A DNA stretch of 6,522 bases from Candidatus Saccharibacteria bacterium UBA3225 (GTDB lineage Bacteria; Patescibacteriota; Saccharimonadia; Saccharimonadales; Saccharimonadaceae): positions 1 to 6,522 of the forward strand of contig DEVX01000063.1 of NCBI GenBank assembly GCA_002363515.1, in the 5' to 3' direction. Below the pieces are notes generated by a model. It searched no databases, had not been told where the DNA came from, and saw only the letters and a program-made list of their open reading frames with translations. The position numbers were made by a program, and so were the translations under genes. This document shows positions 2 to 6,412 of the stretch, piece by piece. The stretch's first letter is position 1, and every line of letters begins with the position of its first letter.

Positions 2-367
2 AATAATCACGGTAAAGCCCCGCCAGATTCTGGGAGCGGTAGCAATATTCTTAGCTCTGATGAGTACGGTAACTGGGTGGCCGTGTTGCCTAGTCAGCCC
101 CTAAAACGCTATCTCGTAGATCTTGACCCGGGTAATGTAACTAAGGTTGTGGCTGTGCGCAATTTAATAGAAAAGAATCGTACTTCTCTGAGGTATAGAA
201 TAGACAATAATGGTGTGGCTTATCACGATGTGGTTACGGTAGTAGTTGGTTCCAAATGTCCCGACTTGGGCAGTGATACGATTCAATTTGTAAATACTGG
301 ACATCGTACTGATATAGTGGTAGTTCGTTTTATGGAGCGAGGCTACTGGTATTGTCAGGAAGTTTAA
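2..367 (+). CDS. Hypothetical protein, C-terminal 121 residues (5' end outside window)
   Basis: The reading frame is open from the left edge of the window to the TAA at 365-367, giving the last 121 residues of a longer protein. A GTG at position 77 could be read as a start, but the frame continues upstream without a stop and no good ribosome site precedes it, so I treat this as a partial gene. The first 20 residues are a Pro/Ser/Gly-rich linker (PPDSGSGS). The remaining ~100 residues look like one compact beta-rich domain with repeated Val-rich strands (VVTVVVG, DIVVVRF). Two cysteines, at fragment residues 86 and 118, are the only ones and could form a disulfide, which would suit an exported protein. 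I do not recognise the family. The gene faces the five-gene minus-strand operon with only 5 bp between the stop codons, so it belongs to a different transcription unit. Coding status is moderately secure and function is unknown. Confidence 0.7.
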   Translation, partial: NNHGKAPPDSGSGSNILSSDEYGNWVAVLPSQPLKRYLVDLDPGNVTKVVAVRNLIEKNRTSLRYRIDNNGVAYHDVVTVVVGSKCPDLGSDTIQFVNTGHRTDIVVVRFMERGYWYCQEV

Positions 368-372
368 TTAGT

Positions 373-1308
373 TTATTCGTCCGATATACCTTCTTGCGTG
401 GTGATTCTTTCGTCGTCTTTGTCGACTTTGTCGATGATTGGCTCTAGATTACTATAGTCAAACGTAAATTGACCGTAATATTCGAATATTTTGAATGGCT
501 GCCCCGTCTCTTTGATACGAATACCATTTATCTCTTTTTCACCAGTTATGCCATTCTTGTAAGTCGATATGAAAGATACCGAATAGCTTGTTGTGCTATT
601 TCTTAGTAATACCGTAAAACTTCCGTCCGCATTGTATTTAATTTCTTGATAAGCGTCTACTTCTGGGAGTAGGTAATAGAAGAATGCGGAGACTGTTTGG
701 TGTATTACTTTGTTTGCGTAGTCGGAATAACCTTTAGCGGCGATTCTTGTGACGCCAGCAAAAATGCTGTTTCTTTCGGAAGGAAATTCATAGTCTTTAT
801 CCTTATCAAGCATATACTCGTTGAGCATCCTTTCGATTGTTTGGTCTCTTGTGATAAATCTAAGTAAGTCGTATTCTTCTTCCGTATAGGCTCCTGTATC
901 TGGCAATAGATACTGCAATAAATATGAGTTTGCGTTTCCGACTAACTCAAAATCCAATTCTTTCTTTATGAAGCCTTCAGCCGTTATGACGGCGTGACAC
1001 TTACCTGAAGGTAAACGATGAGTGCCGTTCGTGTAGCTTATACCATTTATTTCAACGCTGGCGCTTGTGGGGATTAGCCTAACATTCAAGATTGCCGTAT
1101 CTCCAATAACGGCATTTCCGTTCTTTGATCTAATGGCGGCTCTTGCTGCAAATACGAAGACGAACAGCAGTATTATTGCTCCGGCAATTATCAGCTTCTT
1201 CTTTAGTGGCTTTTTTTGCTTTTGTTGTTGCGCTTGCGTGTAATTGGCGCTATTATTCATGAAATTTTGAATAAACTCTTGATTTGGCCTCTCGCTATTG
1301 TTATTCAT
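373..1308 (-). CDS. Single-pass membrane protein with PEGA domain (operon gene 5)
   Basis: This 311-residue protein has a polar, Gln/Asn-rich, presumably cytoplasmic N-terminus (residues 1-37) ending in a basic stretch (KKPLKKK). One transmembrane helix follows at about 38-59, then a ~250-residue extracytoplasmic part. Residues ~71-135 match the PEGA pattern: a strand, P-x-x-A-x-V-x-I-N-G, a turn, a Pro/Ser-Gly-Lys step, then a Gly-Phe and a second strand. PEGA domains are small beta-sandwiches of surface proteins, often thought to bind other proteins or wall material. The rest (140-311) is unrecognised. The start is well fixed by an AGGAGA ribosome site at 1313-1318, four bases before ATG, which overlaps the TAG stop of the preceding gene and implies translational coupling. 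It is the last gene of the operon and resembles the first gene (5765-6412) in its TM-plus-PEGA layout. It has a single Cys (104), unlike its neighbours. A scaffold or adhesion role for the surface complex is inference. Confidence 0.88.
   Translation of the reverse strand: MNNNSERPNQEFIQNFMNNSANYTQAQQQKQKKPLKKKLIIAGAIILLFVFVFAARAAIRSKNGNAVIGDTAILNVRLIPTSASVEINGISYTNGTHRLPSGKCHAVITAEGFIKKELDFELVGNANSYLLQYLLPDTGAYTEEEYDLLRFITRDQTIERMLNEYMLDKDKDYEFPSERNSIFAGVTRIAAKGYSDYANKVIHQTVSAFFYYLLPEVDAYQEIKYNADGSFTVLLRNSTTSYSVSFISTYKNGITGEKEINGIRIKETGQPFKIFEYYGQFTFDYSNLEPIIDKVDKDDERITTQEGISDE
904..1098 (-). other. PEGA domain in operon gene 5
   Basis: This covers residues ~71-135 of the 311-residue protein. 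The core I-P-T-S-A-S-V-E-I-N-G followed by T-N-G-T-H and a late E-G-F matches the PEGA consensus (P-x-G-A-x-V-x-I-N-G ... G-x-x-P ... x-x-G-Y/F). The closest look-alike in this window is at 6110-6298. Confidence 0.7.
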
Positions 1309-1312
1309 TTTT

Positions 1313-1318
1313 TCTCCT
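1313..1318 (-). promoter_or_regulatory. Strong Shine-Dalgarno across the stop codon of the preceding gene
   Basis: The minus strand reads TAGGAGAAAAAATG. AGGAGA is a near-perfect anti-16S match, its first two bases are the last two bases of the TAG stop of the pilin-peptidase gene, and it sits four bases before the ATG of the 311-residue gene. This fixes that start and implies that ribosomes finishing the upstream gene re-initiate here. It is the strongest ribosome site in the operon. Confidence 0.85.
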
Positions 1319-2411
1319 AAAAGTAGTTCGTCGTAGGATTAACGTGCCAAACTTCTGATTTAATTGGTCTTTGCATGCCATAGTTCTTAAGATTGTCGCA
1401 GAACCAATGCGATGTGATTGAATAGTGCCAGCGATTGAGAGATTGTTTATCCGTAACATTGCCCCAATCTTGCGTGGAGGCGCAGGTTGACTTTTTGCCA
1501 TTGTTAGTATCACCTTTCGGGATACTAAAGTCTATTGCTAAGCCACCTTCGTGTGGCGATTCGCCCGGTTTTGCAGCGTATTGTCCGCCGTTGTTTTTAT
1601 ATTCGTTATAGAGTTCTTGCTGTTTTTCGTATGAACGGAATGATTGGCTGGCGCTAAGCTGTTGCCCATATTCTTTTTTGTAGGCCTCCGCAAGGGCGTA
1701 GTATGCTCCAGATACACGCGAGTTTACATATACGTCCCCATTTATGTTCGGTATGGAGCAAAGGTTTATTTTTACCAATTTGCCATTAACATGTGCTTTG
1801 TCGTAAGTTTTATAGAACTTTGTTCTGGGATCGCATTGGATTTTGTCGGAATCCTTCGTAAGCGGCCCGATAGGTTTATCGGTCTGAGTTGCTTCGTTCC
1901 CCCCACCAGTGTTCCCGCCCTGGCCGCCGCCGGCGCTACTATTTCCCCGGGTTGAGCTGCCGCCATTCTGGCCGCTGGAGCCATCGTCGGGCTGACTTAA
2001 GTCTATTGTGCCATCTCCGACTACCCGTGAGCCAGATTCACTACAGCCTTCTGCTGATTCTTGGGGGTTTAAAATTGCATTTAGGTCTCCGCCTGGGATA
2101 AACATCGATATAGAAATTGCTAGCGTCGCATATAGTAGTATGCCGATTATTGTTTCGATGATGCGTTTTATGCCTTTAGATTTTCTATCTGATTGGTCTC
2201 TGGATGTCATGATTAAGATTCCGCCATGGATTAGGCCAATGGTCGCAAGTAGTCCAATTCCGATAGTGAACGTGCTAATGACAAATGAGAGAATTTTAAA
2301 GATAGAGCTACCGTGACAATCGTCGCAGACTTGTCCAAAAAATATAGTATTAATGCAGTTTGATGGTAGGCCTGCTGCGAATTGTTTTAGCAACAATATA
2401 AAATAGTTCAT
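1317..2411 (-). CDS. VirB2/TrbC-like pilin module fused to VanY-type M15 D,D-carboxypeptidase (operon gene 4)
   Basis: This 364-residue protein has two unrelated halves. Residues ~1-108 look like a VirB2/TrbC-type pilin: a short hydrophobic N-terminus, TM helix 1 (~38-68), a basic loop (SRDQSDRKSKGIKR), then TM helix 2 (~82-105) ending in IPGG. The positive loop places both termini outside. A Ser/Gly/Asn/Gln-rich linker (~115-185) leads to a peptidase M15 (VanY) domain at ~230-358. That domain carries the SxHxxGxAxD motif (S285, H287, D294), the E-x-W-H motif (E353, H356) and the upstream R259 of the usual SFRSY segment. H287, D294 and H356 are the expected zinc ligands and E353 the catalytic base, so activity is likely. 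M15 VanY enzymes remove the terminal D-Ala of peptidoglycan stem peptides. Eight cysteines suit an oxidising exterior. The ATG is preceded by AAGGG at only 3 nt spacing. The downstream gene's ribosome site overlaps the TAG stop. Pilin polymerisation is inference; the peptidase call is firm. Confidence 0.9.
   Translation of the reverse strand: MNYFILLLKQFAAGLPSNCINTIFFGQVCDDCHGSSIFKILSFVISTFTIGIGLLATIGLIHGGILIMTSRDQSDRKSKGIKRIIETIIGILLYATLAISISMFIPGGDLNAILNPQESAEGCSESGSRVVGDGTIDLSQPDDGSSGQNGGSSTRGNSSAGGGQGGNTGGGNEATQTDKPIGPLTKDSDKIQCDPRTKFYKTYDKAHVNGKLVKINLCSIPNINGDVYVNSRVSGAYYALAEAYKKEYGQQLSASQSFRSYEKQQELYNEYKNNGGQYAAKPGESPHEGGLAIDFSIPKGDTNNGKKSTCASTQDWGNVTDKQSLNRWHYSITSHWFCDNLKNYGMQRPIKSEVWHVNPTTNYF
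1338..1724 (-). other. Peptidase M15 / VanY catalytic domain
   Basis: This covers residues ~230-358 of the 364-residue protein. All key residues are present: R259, H287, D294, E353 and H356, in the order and approximate spacing of VanY-like zinc D,D-carboxypeptidases. C310 and C338 lie in an insertion between the two zinc motifs and may form a disulfide there. Confidence 0.88.
1857..2069 (-). other. Low-complexity Gly/Ser/Asn linker, locally GC-rich
   Basis: This covers residues ~115-185, joining the pilin-like and peptidase halves. The protein is rich in Gly, Ser, Asn, Gln and Asp, with runs such as SSAGGGQGGNTGGGN. The DNA at about 1895-1985 is visibly more GC-rich than its surroundings because of Gly, Ala and Pro codons and their complements. 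It is probably a flexible spacer that lets the enzyme reach away from the membrane. Confidence 0.8.
2088..2411 (-). other. VirB2/TrbC-like two-helix pilin module
   Basis: This covers residues 1-108. Two hydrophobic helices separated by a basic loop and followed by a Pro-Gly-Gly turn match the layout of VirB2/TrbC pilins and the 'pilin' proteins common near VirB4/VirB6 genes in CPR genomes. N-terminal C19, C29 and C32 (a CDDC pair) are extra features. Family membership rests on layout and hydrophobic pattern, so it is less secure than the M15 call. Confidence 0.65.
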
Positions 2412-2426: not shown

Positions 2427-3179
2427 TTATGCTCCGCTGTTCGAGTCGCAATAGTTTGGCATTATAAAGTTAAATTCTGACACGTTAAAATTATTCCTAT
2501 CCAGCCAAGCCTGGAAATTCTTCAGTGCATTAGCCTTTATTTCCGCATCGCCGCAACTGTCCACTGCTATTTCAAGCTTCTTGTCATTCTTGCGTCGTAT
2601 TACGGTGTAGCTATCTCCGTTATCTGTTTTGCCTACGTATGGCAAATAGCTATCAATTGCTGTCGGCGATTGTTTTTTGAGTTCATATTTGTCGCTGGTG
2701 TACTCGTAGATTTTTGAATTGCCTTCTTTAATAATGAGGTCGATTTTCTGATTTTCGTCTTCTTTAGTTTGAATCGCATAATCGTATGTATCTGCTATTT
2801 TTACTTTAAACTGTTTTATTTCGTCGTTCGCTACCCAGCTATCTTTTTGATAGCTAATCTTTTTGCCCTTTGGATGAAGGATTGAGAAGTAGTTTTGGAT
2901 AACCTTCATCATCTCTACGTAGGCATCTTGCCCATAATCGGCACTAATATCTTCGAAGCCGATTAGGGATAGCCTCCAGTCATTGATTGCGCCTAGATTC
3001 TTTTCATTTATTTCTTTGCCGGAGGCTATATCGATGACGATAGCGGTATTTTTAGTGAGACTATAGCCGTATACTAGTATAGATATTATAATTGCAATGA
3101 TTACTACGCTGACTACGGCGTATGCAATTATGTTGATTAGCTCTTGGTTTTTATCTTTCCAGTCTTTATAGCTTCCCAT
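2427..3179 (-). CDS. Single-pass membrane protein of unknown family (operon gene 3)
   Basis: This 250-residue protein has a short cytoplasmic N-terminus (1-14), one strong transmembrane helix (~15-39) and a ~210-residue extracytoplasmic domain of mixed alpha/beta character. It lacks the PEGA motif of the first and fifth genes. Its only cysteines, C209 and C244, could form a disulfide closing the C-terminal subdomain. The end (AWLDRNNFNVSEFNFIM) resembles the end of the 215-residue protein (ARKLVEDAGFKYENYGIIY), suggesting a shared C-terminal module. The start lies one base after the TAA of the 863-residue gene, with a GAGGT ribosome site inside that gene's last codons, so the two are translationally coupled. 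Topology (short N-tail, one TM, ~200 residues outside) would fit a VirB8-like T4SS component, but I see no sequence motif supporting this. The gene is secure; its function is unknown. Confidence 0.88.
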   Translation of the reverse strand: MGSYKDWKDKNQELINIIAYAVVSVVIIAIIISILVYGYSLTKNTAIVIDIASGKEINEKNLGAINDWRLSLIGFEDISADYGQDAYVEMMKVIQNYFSILHPKGKKISYQKDSWVANDEIKQFKVKIADTYDYAIQTKEDENQKIDLIIKEGNSKIYEYTSDKYELKKQSPTAIDSYLPYVGKTDNGDSYTVIRRKNDKKLEIAVDSCGDAEIKANALKNFQAWLDRNNFNVSEFNFIMPNYCDSNSGA

Positions 3180-3189
3180 TTTACCTCGC
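3180..3189 (-). promoter_or_regulatory. Ribosome binding site embedded in the end of operon gene 2
   Basis: The minus strand reads GCGAGGTAAAATG. GAGGT spans the last Arg codon and the first base of the TAA stop of the 863-residue gene and lies four bases before the ATG of the next gene. Stop and start are separated by a single base, so re-initiation by terminating ribosomes is expected. Confidence 0.75.
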
Positions 3190-5772
3190 TTTGATAGCTT
3201 TACAGTTGTTCATTCTTGGATATATGCTAGACGGATCCCACTCTGTCTCCATACTATTGACGCGTCCTTTTTCTCCATTAGAATCAGCTAGCAGCCATTT
3301 CCCATCGTTAGTAATTCCGCGAATACCGATACAGTGTCCGCCTCCGGTGAATGGATTAGAGCCCTCGCCGCAGGTCCAGATCATGTATCCACTACGCAAC
3401 TTTGCGTTAATCTGATCTATGCTAGCGCCATCTATATTTTCGGCTTCTAGTCCGTATTCTGGAGCAAGTACTAATGGAAGTGAGTGACTACTACCGCTGT
3501 TACAAACATGCAAACCTTTGCTGCCGGCAACTTTTGTCACTTCGTCTGGTAGATATTCTTTTCCGGTTAAAGCGGTGGCCATCATAGCGAAGGAAACTAC
3601 ACCGCATCCTGCAGAACAGGTCGTGCCGCATCCGCCGTAATCGGTGTTTGCCCATTTTTCGTCGCATTGATCCCACCATGGAAAATCATCGCCGCTCCAT
3701 GCTTTCTCCTGTGCACCACAGAATCCTGTATTAGTAGATGCCTGTATGGAGTCGAGAGCTTCCTTTAGCATTGGCCAAATATTTCCAGTATCTGTATGAT
3801 CGTTTGGCGCTGGCGTGTGCATATGGGCTAAAATGCCATTATAGCTATCGAAATCTTCACCGGCCGCTAAGCGTTGCGGTTTTTCCCAGTCGACCGAAGT
3901 GTTCATCGGTATGCCTGTTTCTTGGCCGATTGCGACTAGTAATTTAGCGAGGTATGCCCATTCCTCTTTTGTGAATTTGGTTTTGTCTAATATGTACCAT
4001 TCGTCATTCTCGTGTGCTTTTGTCGAAAAGCCGATTATCTCTATCTGTACGCCCGCTGAATAGTCGTACGACGCAATGCTATTGGCCGGTTTTGTGATAG
4101 GGTGATGCTGGAATACGGTTTTACTTTTTAGGTTAATCGTAAAGTGGGCAGGAAAACCATTTTGGCCATATAGAGCTAAGCCGCTAGTGCCGCCACCGTC
4201 GCCACCTTCGGTGTTGTGCAATGTGATCTTGTTTGGGCCGTAGGTAGTTCCGTCTTTCGGGTTTTTAGTTTTAAAATCTTTAAGATGTTCGCTGTCGCCA
4301 GGCGTATAATTGCCAATTACCTCTTCGCGTTGGTATCCTTCAATTCCGCTTGTGAGCCAGCCATTTGACCAAGTAGCGCTAACTGACTGTTTGCCGGTTG
4401 TGTTGTTGACGGCTTGAGCGATAATTTTAGCAAATAGTTTGCACCCGATGTTGTCAGTTGGATGAAGTTGGTCCATCATGTACTTCTTTGGGTCTTTTGA
4501 TGCAGGGCCAAGCCAGTCGGCAATAACAATGTTGCTGTAGCGCGCTGCGTATTTCTTAAGATGCTCGTTTTTTTCATTAAACTTGGCCGAGTTTTTGCCA
4601 CTGTTCGTTCTGTTGTAAAAATTCATAAGGACTACTTTTCTTTTTGTGCCAACGATTTCCATAAGATCTTTGAAATCTTGCTCGGTTACATCTTCGTCGT
4701 TTGTGCCCAATGCAAAGACGACTGTATTGCGTATTTTGTCGCCTTTACCTTTTAAGCGGGTTAAACCATCTGGCTTATCTGTACTATATGTTCCCGACCA
4801 CATTGAGCCGCTGATGGCGTCAATATCGATGCCTGGCATTGCTTCTTGCAGCTCCTTCTTTGCATGTACGGAGATGGAATCTCCTACCAAGGTAACTTTA
4901 TTGCCGTCGGCAGTTACGCCGGTATCTTCATTTACTCCACCACTACTAGTGTTATTACTAGCGCATTCCATATTAAGTGAGTGTGGTTCGGTACTTGAAA
5001 ACTCTGGGATGCTATGAATGTCTGAGTTGACGTCTGAGTATTTGCCGCCGACTTGGATATTTTTTTGTTTTGCGAGCTCTTCAGAATTTGGCCATCCTTT
5101 TTGTTTTGCAACCTCATCCGAGATGTCGATTGCCCATTTCATAGCATCCCAATAGACATCGTGGTTGCAGCCATCTGACGCTGGACAGTAATGTGCAATT
5201 TCGGCATAAAAGAACTGTTTTAAGTCAAAGTTGCTTGCTGATGAATATTGAAAGGCGTCGGAGTAGATCCCGTTGCGCAAGAAGTCGATGGCGTATCCGG
5301 CCATCATATTTTCGATTGATGAATAGATCGACCATTTTCTGCTTCCAGCGTCGTATGGTTCTGGTTTATTATAGAAACCGCTACTCGTATAGGATAAACC
5401 GAGCCAGTTAAAACCTCCTAACTCTTCTACGTGCGAAGCGACGCAGTCGGTGCAGAGGCCCAAAGTTGACTCATGCACCATTTGTGCAAATACTAATTCC
5501 CACGGTACGCCCGTTTCTTCCTGTAGTTTCATGGAAAGGATGCCGTATTTCTCTGTCACTTCGCGGAGGCGGGCTTCTACGTCCGTACCCGTAATTTCGC
5601 CGCCACATTCACCAGTAATATCGCCAGTTCCGCAGTAGTCATCTGGCTTATAGAATCTGATTCTGTTTTGAGCGAATTGGTCGATATACTCGCTAGTATT
5701 TGCGTGGGCATTATTTCCGACTATTGACAGTGTTATTATAAGGAATAGTGCTAATAATATCTTTTTATTCAT
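3181..5772 (-). CDS. Secreted four-domain peptidoglycan hydrolase: GH73-like, SGNH, Amidase_2, C39-like peptidase (operon gene 2)
   Basis: This 863-residue protein begins with a signal peptide (residues 1-24, Lys-rich start, hydrophobic core, AHA cleavage site). Four enzyme-like domains follow. (1) A GH73 glucosaminidase-like domain at ~70-225 has FAQMVHESTLG, with E101 as probable acid. (2) An SGNH hydrolase at ~292-455 has GDSI (S299), GTND (N358) and DQLHP (D434, H437), resembling the outer domain of OatA-type O-acetyltransferases. (3) An Amidase_2 (AmpD-type) domain at ~505-672 has H519, E578, H650 and D661. (4) A C39-like cysteine peptidase at ~697-850 has C723, H813 and D830. Expected targets are the glycan chain, O-acetyl groups on sugars, the MurNAc-L-Ala bond and stem or cross-bridge peptides. 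It has 17 cysteines, of which 16 remain for disulfides once nucleophile C723 is set aside. No C-terminal anchor is visible. Its ATG overlaps the end of the preceding gene by 8 nt, with a weak GGGA ribosome site. The domains are clear; their actual substrates, and whether wall is self or foreign, are inference. Confidence 0.93.
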   Translation of the reverse strand: MNKKILLALFLIITLSIVGNNAHANTSEYIDQFAQNRIRFYKPDDYCGTGDITGECGGEITGTDVEARLREVTEKYGILSMKLQEETGVPWELVFAQMVHESTLGLCTDCVASHVEELGGFNWLGLSYTSSGFYNKPEPYDAGSRKWSIYSSIENMMAGYAIDFLRNGIYSDAFQYSSASNFDLKQFFYAEIAHYCPASDGCNHDVYWDAMKWAIDISDEVAKQKGWPNSEELAKQKNIQVGGKYSDVNSDIHSIPEFSSTEPHSLNMECASNNTSSGGVNEDTGVTADGNKVTLVGDSISVHAKKELQEAMPGIDIDAISGSMWSGTYSTDKPDGLTRLKGKGDKIRNTVVFALGTNDEDVTEQDFKDLMEIVGTKRKVVLMNFYNRTNSGKNSAKFNEKNEHLKKYAARYSNIVIADWLGPASKDPKKYMMDQLHPTDNIGCKLFAKIIAQAVNNTTGKQSVSATWSNGWLTSGIEGYQREEVIGNYTPGDSEHLKDFKTKNPKDGTTYGPNKITLHNTEGGDGGGTSGLALYGQNGFPAHFTINLKSKTVFQHHPITKPANSIASYDYSAGVQIEIIGFSTKAHENDEWYILDKTKFTKEEWAYLAKLLVAIGQETGIPMNTSVDWEKPQRLAAGEDFDSYNGILAHMHTPAPNDHTDTGNIWPMLKEALDSIQASTNTGFCGAQEKAWSGDDFPWWDQCDEKWANTDYGGCGTTCSAGCGVVSFAMMATALTGKEYLPDEVTKVAGSKGLHVCNSGSSHSLPLVLAPEYGLEAENIDGASIDQINAKLRSGYMIWTCGEGSNPFTGGGHCIGIRGITNDGKWLLADSNGEKGRVNSMETEWDPSSIYPRMNNCKAIKAR
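3223..3684 (-). other. C39-like cysteine peptidase domain (Peptidase_C39_2 type)
   Basis: This covers residues ~697-850. The opening WWDQCDEKWA matches the 'YYSQxDPxWA' start of the family. The nucleophile lies in AGCGVVSFAMM (C723), the His in GGGHCIGIRGI (H813) and the third triad residue in LLADSN (D830). Cysteines 703, 715, 719, 757, 801 and 814 make it unusually Cys-rich for the fold. Related domains cleave peptides or wall cross-bridges; here the domain is C-terminal and not next to an ABC transporter, so bacteriocin-leader processing is unlikely. Confidence 0.82.
3757..4260 (-). other. N-acetylmuramoyl-L-alanine amidase domain (Amidase_2)
   Basis: This covers residues ~505-672. ITLHNTE supplies zinc ligand H519, GVQIEIIG supplies catalytic E578, and ILAHMHTPAPNDHTDTG supplies H650 and D661. 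This corresponds to the AmpD/PGRP-type set His, Glu, His, Asp. The stretch between H650 and D661 is one residue longer than in AmpD. Confidence 0.88.
4408..4899 (-). other. SGNH hydrolase domain (OatA C-terminal-like)
   Basis: This covers residues ~292-455. Block I is VGDSI (S299), block III is LGTND (N358), and block V is MDQLHP (D434, H437). The order and the VTLVGDSISVHA opening resemble the extracellular SGNH domain of peptidoglycan O-acetyltransferases. Without the ten-helix acyltransferase partner in this protein, an esterase that removes O-acetyl groups seems more likely than a transferase. Confidence 0.82.
5098..5565 (-). other. GH73-type endo-beta-N-acetylglucosaminidase-like domain
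   Basis: This covers residues ~70-225. KLQEETGVPWELVFAQMVHE corresponds to the 'SGVPPSLTLAQAILES' region with catalytic E101. NWLGL corresponds to 'NLFGIK', and SSIENMMAGYAIDFL to the conserved 'S.....Y..FL' segment of FlgJ/GH73 enzymes. Cys pairs 107/110 and 196/202 are additions. A lysozyme-like or lytic transglycosylase activity on the same fold cannot be excluded. Confidence 0.72.
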
Positions 5773-5782
5773 AGATAATCCC
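5765..5782 (-). promoter_or_regulatory. Start/stop overlap with weak ribosome site between operon genes 1 and 2
   Basis: The minus strand reads ATGAATAA, so the ATG of the hydrolase gene lies inside the end of the first gene, whose TAA is four bases on. A weak GGGA (5779-5782) sits six bases before the ATG. The overlap suggests coupled translation rather than strong independent initiation. Confidence 0.6.
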
Positions 5783-6412
5783 GTAGTTCTCGTACTTAAA
5801 CCCTGCGTCTTCTACTAGTTTTCTAGCAACACTATCGTTGCCAGTATTGTCTTTTAGTTTGAGACAAAAAACTGCTCTACAGTTCTTATCTGATGTGCCG
5901 TTAGTAACAACGGTTTCGTAGAATGGTTTCCCATCAGGTGCGTTATTGCCATTCGTAAGCATCGTGACTTGATGCAGTGGCAAAACTGAAACGATTTGTT
6001 TGGAGCTTTCGATTTCTTGGATGTAGTCTTTTGATTCATTCGTGCCGATAAGTTTTAGCGCTTCGTAGTCTTCTGGATGTTTTGTGTACCATCCGTAGTC
6101 GCCGCTTTGGGACAGCGCGGCATATACGGTGGCGGTTTGCCTCGATTTTAGCTCTACTTCGTATTTTTGGGTATCAAAACCGTCCCTGCTAATTTCTACT
6201 GTTACCTTGCCGGCGAAGAATTTATGATTGCCATTATGATATTCTGCGCCATTTATTTTGATAGTTGCATCTAGAGGAGTTGCTATTACTACTAGCTTTG
6301 CGTTACGAAAAAACCTTAAGGCTACTACTCCTATGATTGATATTGCTAATAATATCCCTAAGAACATCGCAATAGTGCGGATGTTCTTAACAAACCATTC
6401 TTTGACCCTCAT
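5765..6412 (-). CDS. Single-pass membrane protein with PEGA domain (operon gene 1)
   Basis: This 215-residue protein has a short basic cytoplasmic tail (1-11), one transmembrane helix (~12-33), a PEGA domain (~39-101) and an unrecognised C-terminal part (~105-215). The PEGA core is ATPLDATIKINGAEYHNG, with a later Ala-Gly-Lys step and a Gly-Phe before the second strand. Both cysteines, C178 and C183, are close together in the C-terminal region. The last ~20 residues (ARKLVEDAGFKYENYGIIY) resemble the C-terminus of the 250-residue protein two genes later, so the two may share an outer module. The ATG at 6412 is the first in frame and lies only a few bases from promoter-like sequence, with no Shine-Dalgarno, so the mRNA may be leaderless. 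Its stop overlaps the start of the 863-residue gene by 8 nt. As first gene of the operon, with an anchor and a protein-binding-type domain, a scaffold for the secreted hydrolase is plausible but is inference. Confidence 0.88.
   Translation of the reverse strand: MRVKEWFVKNIRTIAMFLGILLAISIIGVVALRFFRNAKLVVIATPLDATIKINGAEYHNGNHKFFAGKVTVEISRDGFDTQKYEVELKSRQTATVYAALSQSGDYGWYTKHPEDYEALKLIGTNESKDYIQEIESSKQIVSVLPLHQVTMLTNGNNAPDGKPFYETVVTNGTSDKNCRAVFCLKLKDNTGNDSVARKLVEDAGFKYENYGIIYE
6110..6298 (-). other. PEGA domain in operon gene 1
   Basis: This covers residues ~39-101. P-L-D-A-T-I-K-I-N-G, then H-N-G-N-H, F-A-G-K and R-D-G-F follow the PEGA consensus in order. It shares the pattern INGxxYxNGxH with the PEGA domain of operon gene 5 (ING-ISY-TNGTH versus ING-AEY-HNGNH), suggesting that the two are paralogous. 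Confidence 0.75.

Follow-up and report, generated by a model that had tools for sequence, protein, structure and literature searches.

A VirB2-type pilin module fused to a VanY-type peptidase in Saccharibacteria: one of a family of pilin-enzyme fusions

By what means ultrasmall epibionts break through or remodel their hosts' walls is an open problem. Patescibacteria have arrays of VirB2-like pilins in their type IV secretion systems (T4SS), and most of their genomes with VirB2 have no recognised VirB1, according to the portions consulted of one study (PMC12102498). In Southlakia epibionticum the pilin array is essential, according to the consulted part of another (PMC10633639), and it is still without a proven job. 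Here, we analysed a contig of Candidatus Saccharibacteria bacterium UBA3225 (DEVX01000063.1) in which one gene joins a pilin module of this kind to a VanY-type wall peptidase. The window is the whole contig, 6,522 bases, of a genome of 915 kb in 88 contigs that is 86% complete. Why would a pilin carry a wall enzyme? We confirmed that the pilin-VanY fusion is real, and we give an even chance to its being a T4SS minor pilin that brings a wall enzyme outside, to the contact with the host.

The initial annotation had placed pilin and VanY in a single protein at 1317..2411, and an open reading frame (ORF) is indeed found there on the minus strand, the plus strand from 1317 having many stops. It had also allowed that homologues might keep the two halves as separate genes and expose an assembly error. 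Instead, they carry both halves in one gene. Near copies with 94-96% identity occur in three other assemblies (L016-L018), and the cluster of fusion homologues (P0001) has 38 member sequences on 29 contigs. Hence, the fusion is not an assembly error, and we rejected an artefact. A search with the window protein gave 16 homologues. A listing of 15 leaves out P0016, which bears PF18895 and nearly duplicates L024; in 14 of these 15 the profile described below finds the pilin module, 13 of them scoring above 95 bits; the shorter homologue P0008 scores 50.6 bits and P0015 has no module match. The pilin and VanY halves are each also found without the other.

The N-terminal half had been described as a two-helix VirB2/TrbC-like module, and profiles, alignment and predicted structure of its family bear this out. 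We built a profile (pilB) from window residues 36-110 and their relatives, on which the window protein scores 102.4 bits, its own sequence being included. Six standalone pilins score 76-98.6 bits, including one from the window's genome and the virB6 neighbour of L020, and other pilins score 20-43 bits; we name the high-scoring kind group B. Aligned to nine array pilins with hhalign, group B gives a probability of 98 (E 2.6e-13), and among 20 module sequences PF18895 (T4SS_pilin) is matched by 19 and TrbC/VirB2 by nine (E 0.01). The window protein itself matches PF18895 at residues 47-95 with E 0.0019 and 18.7 bits (21.7 bits for the module alone), below the cut-off of 26.6, and it has no match to NF045849 (conjugal pilin-like) at E 0.01. 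We thus base the pilin assignment on the family profiles and hhalign rather than on this weak match. Across 99 genomes sampled evenly from the class, PF18895 is present in 94 and group B in 42 (E 1e-20). Among the 53 group-B matches of this sample, 12, from seven genomes, lie in open frames of at least 299 amino acids (aa), a count that includes the 299-aa frame of G092 without its having been read.

One might argue that the N-terminus is an unrelated anchor with a chance likeness to a pilin, given the sub-threshold PF18895 match of the window protein and the lack of any match (E 10) when the module profile was searched against PDB sequences. Structure searches gave no pilus matches beyond borderline ones. 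Yet the same module occurs alone in T4SS pilin arrays, the hhalign probability is high, and among the 62 fusion proteins that we found, a number that counts near copies of closely related genomes, PF18895 is matched in 56, NF045849 in 39 and TrbC in 17 (E 0.01 for Pfam). We consider a chance likeness very improbable and rejected it on the standalone copies of the module beside virB6.

AlphaFold2 folds the module into a hairpin of two helices (residues 35-69 and 74-104), with a block predicted local distance difference test (pLDDT) of 67-79 over residues 41-100. R83 and G90 of helix 2 and P106 just after it are near-invariant in the module family. The loop 70-83 has six lysines or arginines, against one in residues 1-34 and one in 105-130, which predicts a loop inside and both protein ends outside. 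The module is thus predicted to have the VirB2/TrbC trait of two hydrophobic helices around a short positive loop with both ends out, and the outward placement of the enzyme, proposed earlier from the charge pattern, holds as a prediction. The linker is likewise predicted to be disordered, residues 106-171 having a pLDDT below 50. At 364 aa and with a second domain, the protein lacks the smallness of a plain VirB2 and is classed as a pilin-derived fusion.

The C-terminal half matches Pfam VanY at residues 228-356 with 44.1 bits (cut-off 25), and by both fold and profile it belongs to the VanY/LdcB M15 peptidases. The set H287, D294, E353 and H356 had been numbered correctly and is conserved. 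In a 17-row alignment the last three are invariant and H287 nearly so, and H287 and D294 align with zinc-bound 4mph. We take the two H and the D of the set to be zinc ligands and the E to be catalytic. The AlphaFold2 model of this part has a pLDDT mostly of 84-97, with a lowest block of 74. From residues and fold, zinc peptidase activity is predicted.

Is the fusion tied to T4SS? We found 12 pilin-VanY proteins in 11 genomes (the window's, G186, G225, G298, G321, G322, G307, G295, G309, G223 with two, and G154), and the same fusion next to virB4/virB6, which the initial annotation had suggested looking for, occurs in G309 and G295. In G309 (L198) the pilin-VanY gene heads the T4SS pilin array and is divergent from virB6, which is followed by PrgI, TrsD, virB4, a virB4-downstream membrane protein (Mem), lytic and PEGA-like genes; the group-B module of the second array gene is nearly identical to that of the pilin-VanY. 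These tandem group-B genes (L198:13907-16064) share a near-identical linker and module, one with VanY and the other with an N-terminal extension. In G295 (L022) the pilin-VanY gene is the divergent neighbour of virB6, and in G321 (L020/L201) it lies on the far side of the pilin array, some 8 kb from virB6. The G154 gene (L021) adjoins a Mem-type protein and a VirB6-like gene, at a locus with no PrgI, TrsD or VirB4 match. The stretches read in the remaining pilin-VanY genomes have no T4SS gene.

The VanY half is itself part of the T4SS operon elsewhere. A VanY protein of about 1000 aa directly follows virB4 in all eight loci read (L027, L030, L031, L126-L129, L131), picked from homologue matches and hence not a random sample, and in all of them Mem ends in a VanY of this subfamily. 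PrgI and TrsD precede virB4 in these loci, and after the Mem-VanY gene come a recognised lytic gene in four and a PEGA-like gene in two. Southlakia has an essential peptidase encoded after virB4 (PMC12102498). In the window's genus, neither BLAST nor profile finds a VanY in Mem (L132, L133, L135, L198), the same holds for Mem of L021, and G136 (L134) has no Mem-type protein behind virB4. VanY is found in 15 of the genus's 45 genomes, with 16 matches: 11 in group-B pilins, two in lytic-type proteins (875 and 931 aa, kin to the window's lytic protein), three of an unrelated VanY type and none in Mem. Multi-domain lytic proteins bear this VanY in L023, L025 and L026. Pilin-borne VanY do not form one clade in the VanY tree, where the pilin label changes four times, at least two of them forced by starred branches. 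Pilins have thus acquired this VanY repeatedly, or lost it. This goes beyond what the initial annotation could show: the protein has relatives among other pilin fusions, and its VanY is of a kind that belongs to the T4SS operon.

The same loci raise the possibility that the enzyme is self-directed: as a displaced helper of the VirB1 type, it would open or trim the wall of the epibiont itself so that the T4SS can be assembled. VirB1-type genes of Gram-positive systems occupy the place right after virB4, and this is where the VanY subfamily ends a protein; the rarity of recognised VirB1 among VirB2-bearing Patescibacteria points the same way. Yet GH114, esterase, phosphatase and metallo-beta-lactamase-fold partners of other pilin fusions would not obviously help to assemble the bearer's own T4SS, and the window locus is unlinked to T4SS. 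We regard a self-directed enzyme as unlikely.

The fused modules are also close to the pilins of their own genomes. Standalone group-B pilins adjoin virB6 in the five loci read (L010, which is the window's genome, L201, L132, L133, L135). For 45 of 60 fused rows there was a standalone pilin of the same genome, ranked among 18 choices each. The 60 rows represent 59 genes, one G154 gene entering twice, once as a fragment (G154 is outside the 45), and the near-identical genomes G000, G186 and G225 entered the ranking separately. The own pilin is the closest in 27 of the 45 rows, and the window's fused module is 41% identical to its own standalone pilin and 37% to the best other. The mean own identity is 54.2%, against a permuted mean of 41.5%. 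Within genus g3 alone the values are 55.4% and 47.1%, and none of 20,000 permutations reaches the observed mean; genus g1, with three species, is too small for the test. Recent duplication and concerted evolution both fit this likeness, and either one ties the fused module to the standalone pilin. Per-site conservation correlates between fused and standalone modules (Spearman 0.86, partly shared ancestry), and G59, G64, R83, G90 and P106 are conserved at 90% or more. The tree of pilin modules (75 columns) has little resolution, with 6 of 63 branches starred, and we used it as a hint only.

Two observations weigh against a place in the T4SS. First, VirB4 is not above cut-off in two of the 15 fusion-bearing genomes searched, G145 and G154, which are 99% and 96% complete, encode several pilin fusions (four and seven) and VirB6-like genes, and in which no standalone group-B pilin was found. 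Fused modules may hence work outside a standard T4SS, at least there. Second, the window-type locus (L017) is unlinked to T4SS, and in G186 this locus and the T4SS (L132) are on different contigs. Both observations would suit a pilin hairpin reused as a two-pass membrane anchor, with the enzyme on the epibiont's own surface and never in a filament, as would the presence of extra domains at either end of the module or at both and the size of some fusions, above 600 aa. On the other hand, an anchor accounts poorly for the five residues conserved as in standalone pilins, for the likeness of fused modules to their own genome's pilin and for the pilin-VanY that heads the array in G309. We find a reused anchor rather doubtful, if a serious possibility. 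The initial annotation had offered filament display and anchor as alternatives, and these data do not decide between them.

The VirB6-like genes deserve a separate remark. A second type of such genes is present in nine of ten genomes examined. Its proteins (L207-L217, about 850-1,720 aa where complete) are encoded away from T4SS, and their usual neighbour is a protein of some 300-500 aa. We dropped the notion of another system centred on VirB6, as no pilin is found in any of the 11 stretches read around these genes (eight genomes); the gene at L021 is the sole one of this type seen with a pilin-VanY nearby.

We favour a T4SS minor pilin because of the place of the gene at the head of the G309 array and beside virB6 in L022, because this VanY subfamily is at home after virB4 and is pilin-borne in a genus whose Mem lacks it, because standalone pilins of the same subfamily adjoin virB6, because fused and standalone modules share own-genome likeness and conservation profile, and because pilin-borne VanY are not one clade. 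The VirB2-type module would enter the pilus or its base on VirB6, and the predicted hairpin, with both ends out in the AlphaFold2 model and by charge pattern, would hold the enzyme outside. Where the epibiont touches its host, it would cleave peptidoglycan, probably that of the host wall, acting in the manner of a T4SS-borne wall enzyme. It would also make up for the VanY absent from Mem in this genus.

VanY is but one of the partners. The window's genome has 16 pilin-domain ORFs, namely seven standalone, eight complete fusions, part of which have group-A pilins, and one running off its contig. Partners in this genome besides VanY are a C39 peptidase, a GH114 glycosidase, a tyrosine phosphatase and unnamed domains, with DUF4886 (SGNH-like) and CHAP below threshold; several fusions have intervening Big_2 domains. 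Among the 62 fusions, Pfam (E 0.01) gives Big_2 in ten, VanY in nine, GDSL, C39 and NAGPA in three each, tyrosine phosphatase and NlpC/P60 in two each, and GH114 and phage lysozyme in one each; NCBIfam adds a PHB-type esterase in four, and an L096 fusion has a sub-threshold metallo-beta-lactamase fold. Modules at least 50% identical (141 pairs) have partners of the same cluster in 59 pairs and of different clusters in 82. These single-linkage clusters are loose because Big_2 joins different enzymes, and we therefore quote Pfam and NCBIfam counts. Fourteen rows (L117, L118, L121, L123, L101, L107, L108, L102) have an unnamed N-terminal domain family of about 300 aa before a group-B pilin; in three members checked (L104:3091, L117, L123) no named N-terminal Pfam domain is above cut-off.

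These fusions suggest that the VirB2 fold can act as a modular enzyme carrier, and it is likely that these tiny bacteria deliver enzymes to the host-cell surface by means of pilus parts. More tentatively, with a little less than even confidence, we propose that in Saccharibacteria of this family the virB6-adjacent pilin was duplicated and equipped with exchangeable enzymes that face outward (peptidases, lysozyme, glycosidase, esterases, phosphatase). The resulting enzyme-armed T4SS pili would let one secretion machine offer lineage-specific tools at the host cell, would be a T4SS equivalent of enzyme-tipped type VI spikes, and would be the source of the missing VirB1 activity. A pilin with the kind of wall enzyme found in T4SS loci gives the pilin array a concrete, testable function, and offers a reason for the seemingly missing VirB1 in many Patescibacteria.

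In the window, the gene order is PEGA-like, lytic, 250-aa, pilin-VanY and 311-aa (Table 1), and this arrangement repeats the lytic and PEGA-like parts at a place away from T4SS (L017). The 863-aa lytic protein, a relative of the T4SS-operon lytic protein, has sub-threshold Pfam matches to Glucosaminidase, GDSL and Amidase_2. L027 and L030 have a relative of the 215-aa protein downstream of their T4SS lytic gene, and in L017, L019 and L021 the pilin-VanY is also followed by a relative of the 311-aa protein. Small proteins with a single transmembrane segment (TM; from several families, about 165-320 aa) are encoded by genes that touch or overlap fusion genes of the same strand (L021, L084, L090, L097, L100, L103-L105, L109, L116-L118, L121, L124 and window 373-1308), such neighbours accompanying 23 of 60 fusions and 10 of 84 control ORFs, in rows that are not independent. 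They are possible cognate partners or immunity proteins. At the window's edge, positions 2-367 (plus strand) encode the C-terminal part of a type IV pilin-like protein, whose full-length copy (L017:12044-12619) shows to the eye, close to its start, a prepilin motif of the GFTIIEVVLVLAIAGL type.

Table 1. Features of the pilin-VanY gene and its neighbours, in window coordinates.
Feature	Position	Strand	Evidence
Pilin-VanY fusion gene, 364 aa	1317..2411	minus	ORF list, Pfam, homologue search, alignment
VirB2-type pilin module, group B, residues 36-110	2082..2306	minus	pilB profile, PF18895/TrbC, hhalign, AlphaFold2 hairpin
Helix 1, residues 35-69, predicted transmembrane	2205..2309	minus	
Helix 2, residues 74-104, predicted transmembrane	2100..2192	minus	
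Gly/Ser/Asn low-complexity linker, residues 106-171, predicted disordered	1899..2096	minus	AlphaFold2
VanY/LdcB-type M15 peptidase domain, residues 181-364	1320..1871	minus	Pfam, alignment, predicted fold
H287	1551-1553	minus	
D294	1530-1532	minus	
E353	1353-1355	minus	
H356	1344-1346	minus	
250-aa single-TM protein, directly upstream of pilin-VanY, gap 16	2427..3179	minus	
863-aa wall-lytic type protein	3181..5772	minus	C39 above Pfam cut-off
215-aa membrane protein, PEGA-like domain (sub-threshold)	5765..6412	minus	
311-aa single-TM protein, downstream of pilin-VanY	373..1308	minus	

Our searches, limited to the main texts of the open-access literature, turned up no report of pilins fused to enzymes in Patescibacteria. 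The VirB2-like arrays of these bacteria have the same module family at the same type of locus beside virB6, and one pilin-VanY heads such an array, but they are described as pilin genes, with no enzyme fusion reported in the consulted parts of PMC12102498 and PMC10633639. Unlike VanY/LdcB (DacB) M15 carboxypeptidases (5hnm, 4jid, 4mph), the enzyme here is fused to a pilin module. VirB1-type hydrolases of Gram-positive T4SS, such as PrgK and TraG, are peptidoglycan enzymes tied to T4SS, a tie that pilin-VanY shows in G309 and L022 and the window locus does not show, and the home gene of this VanY comes directly after virB4; they are transglycosylase/CHAP enzymes, whereas here an M15 peptidase is borne by a pilin. 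In type VI secretion systems, 'evolved' VgrG/PAAR spikes are also structural parts carrying swappable enzyme domains, but in a different machine, without homology, and the function is a proposed one in our case. The shufflon PilV of R64 is likewise a minor pilin with exchangeable C-terminal parts, but it is of type IVb and its parts are adhesins instead of enzymes.
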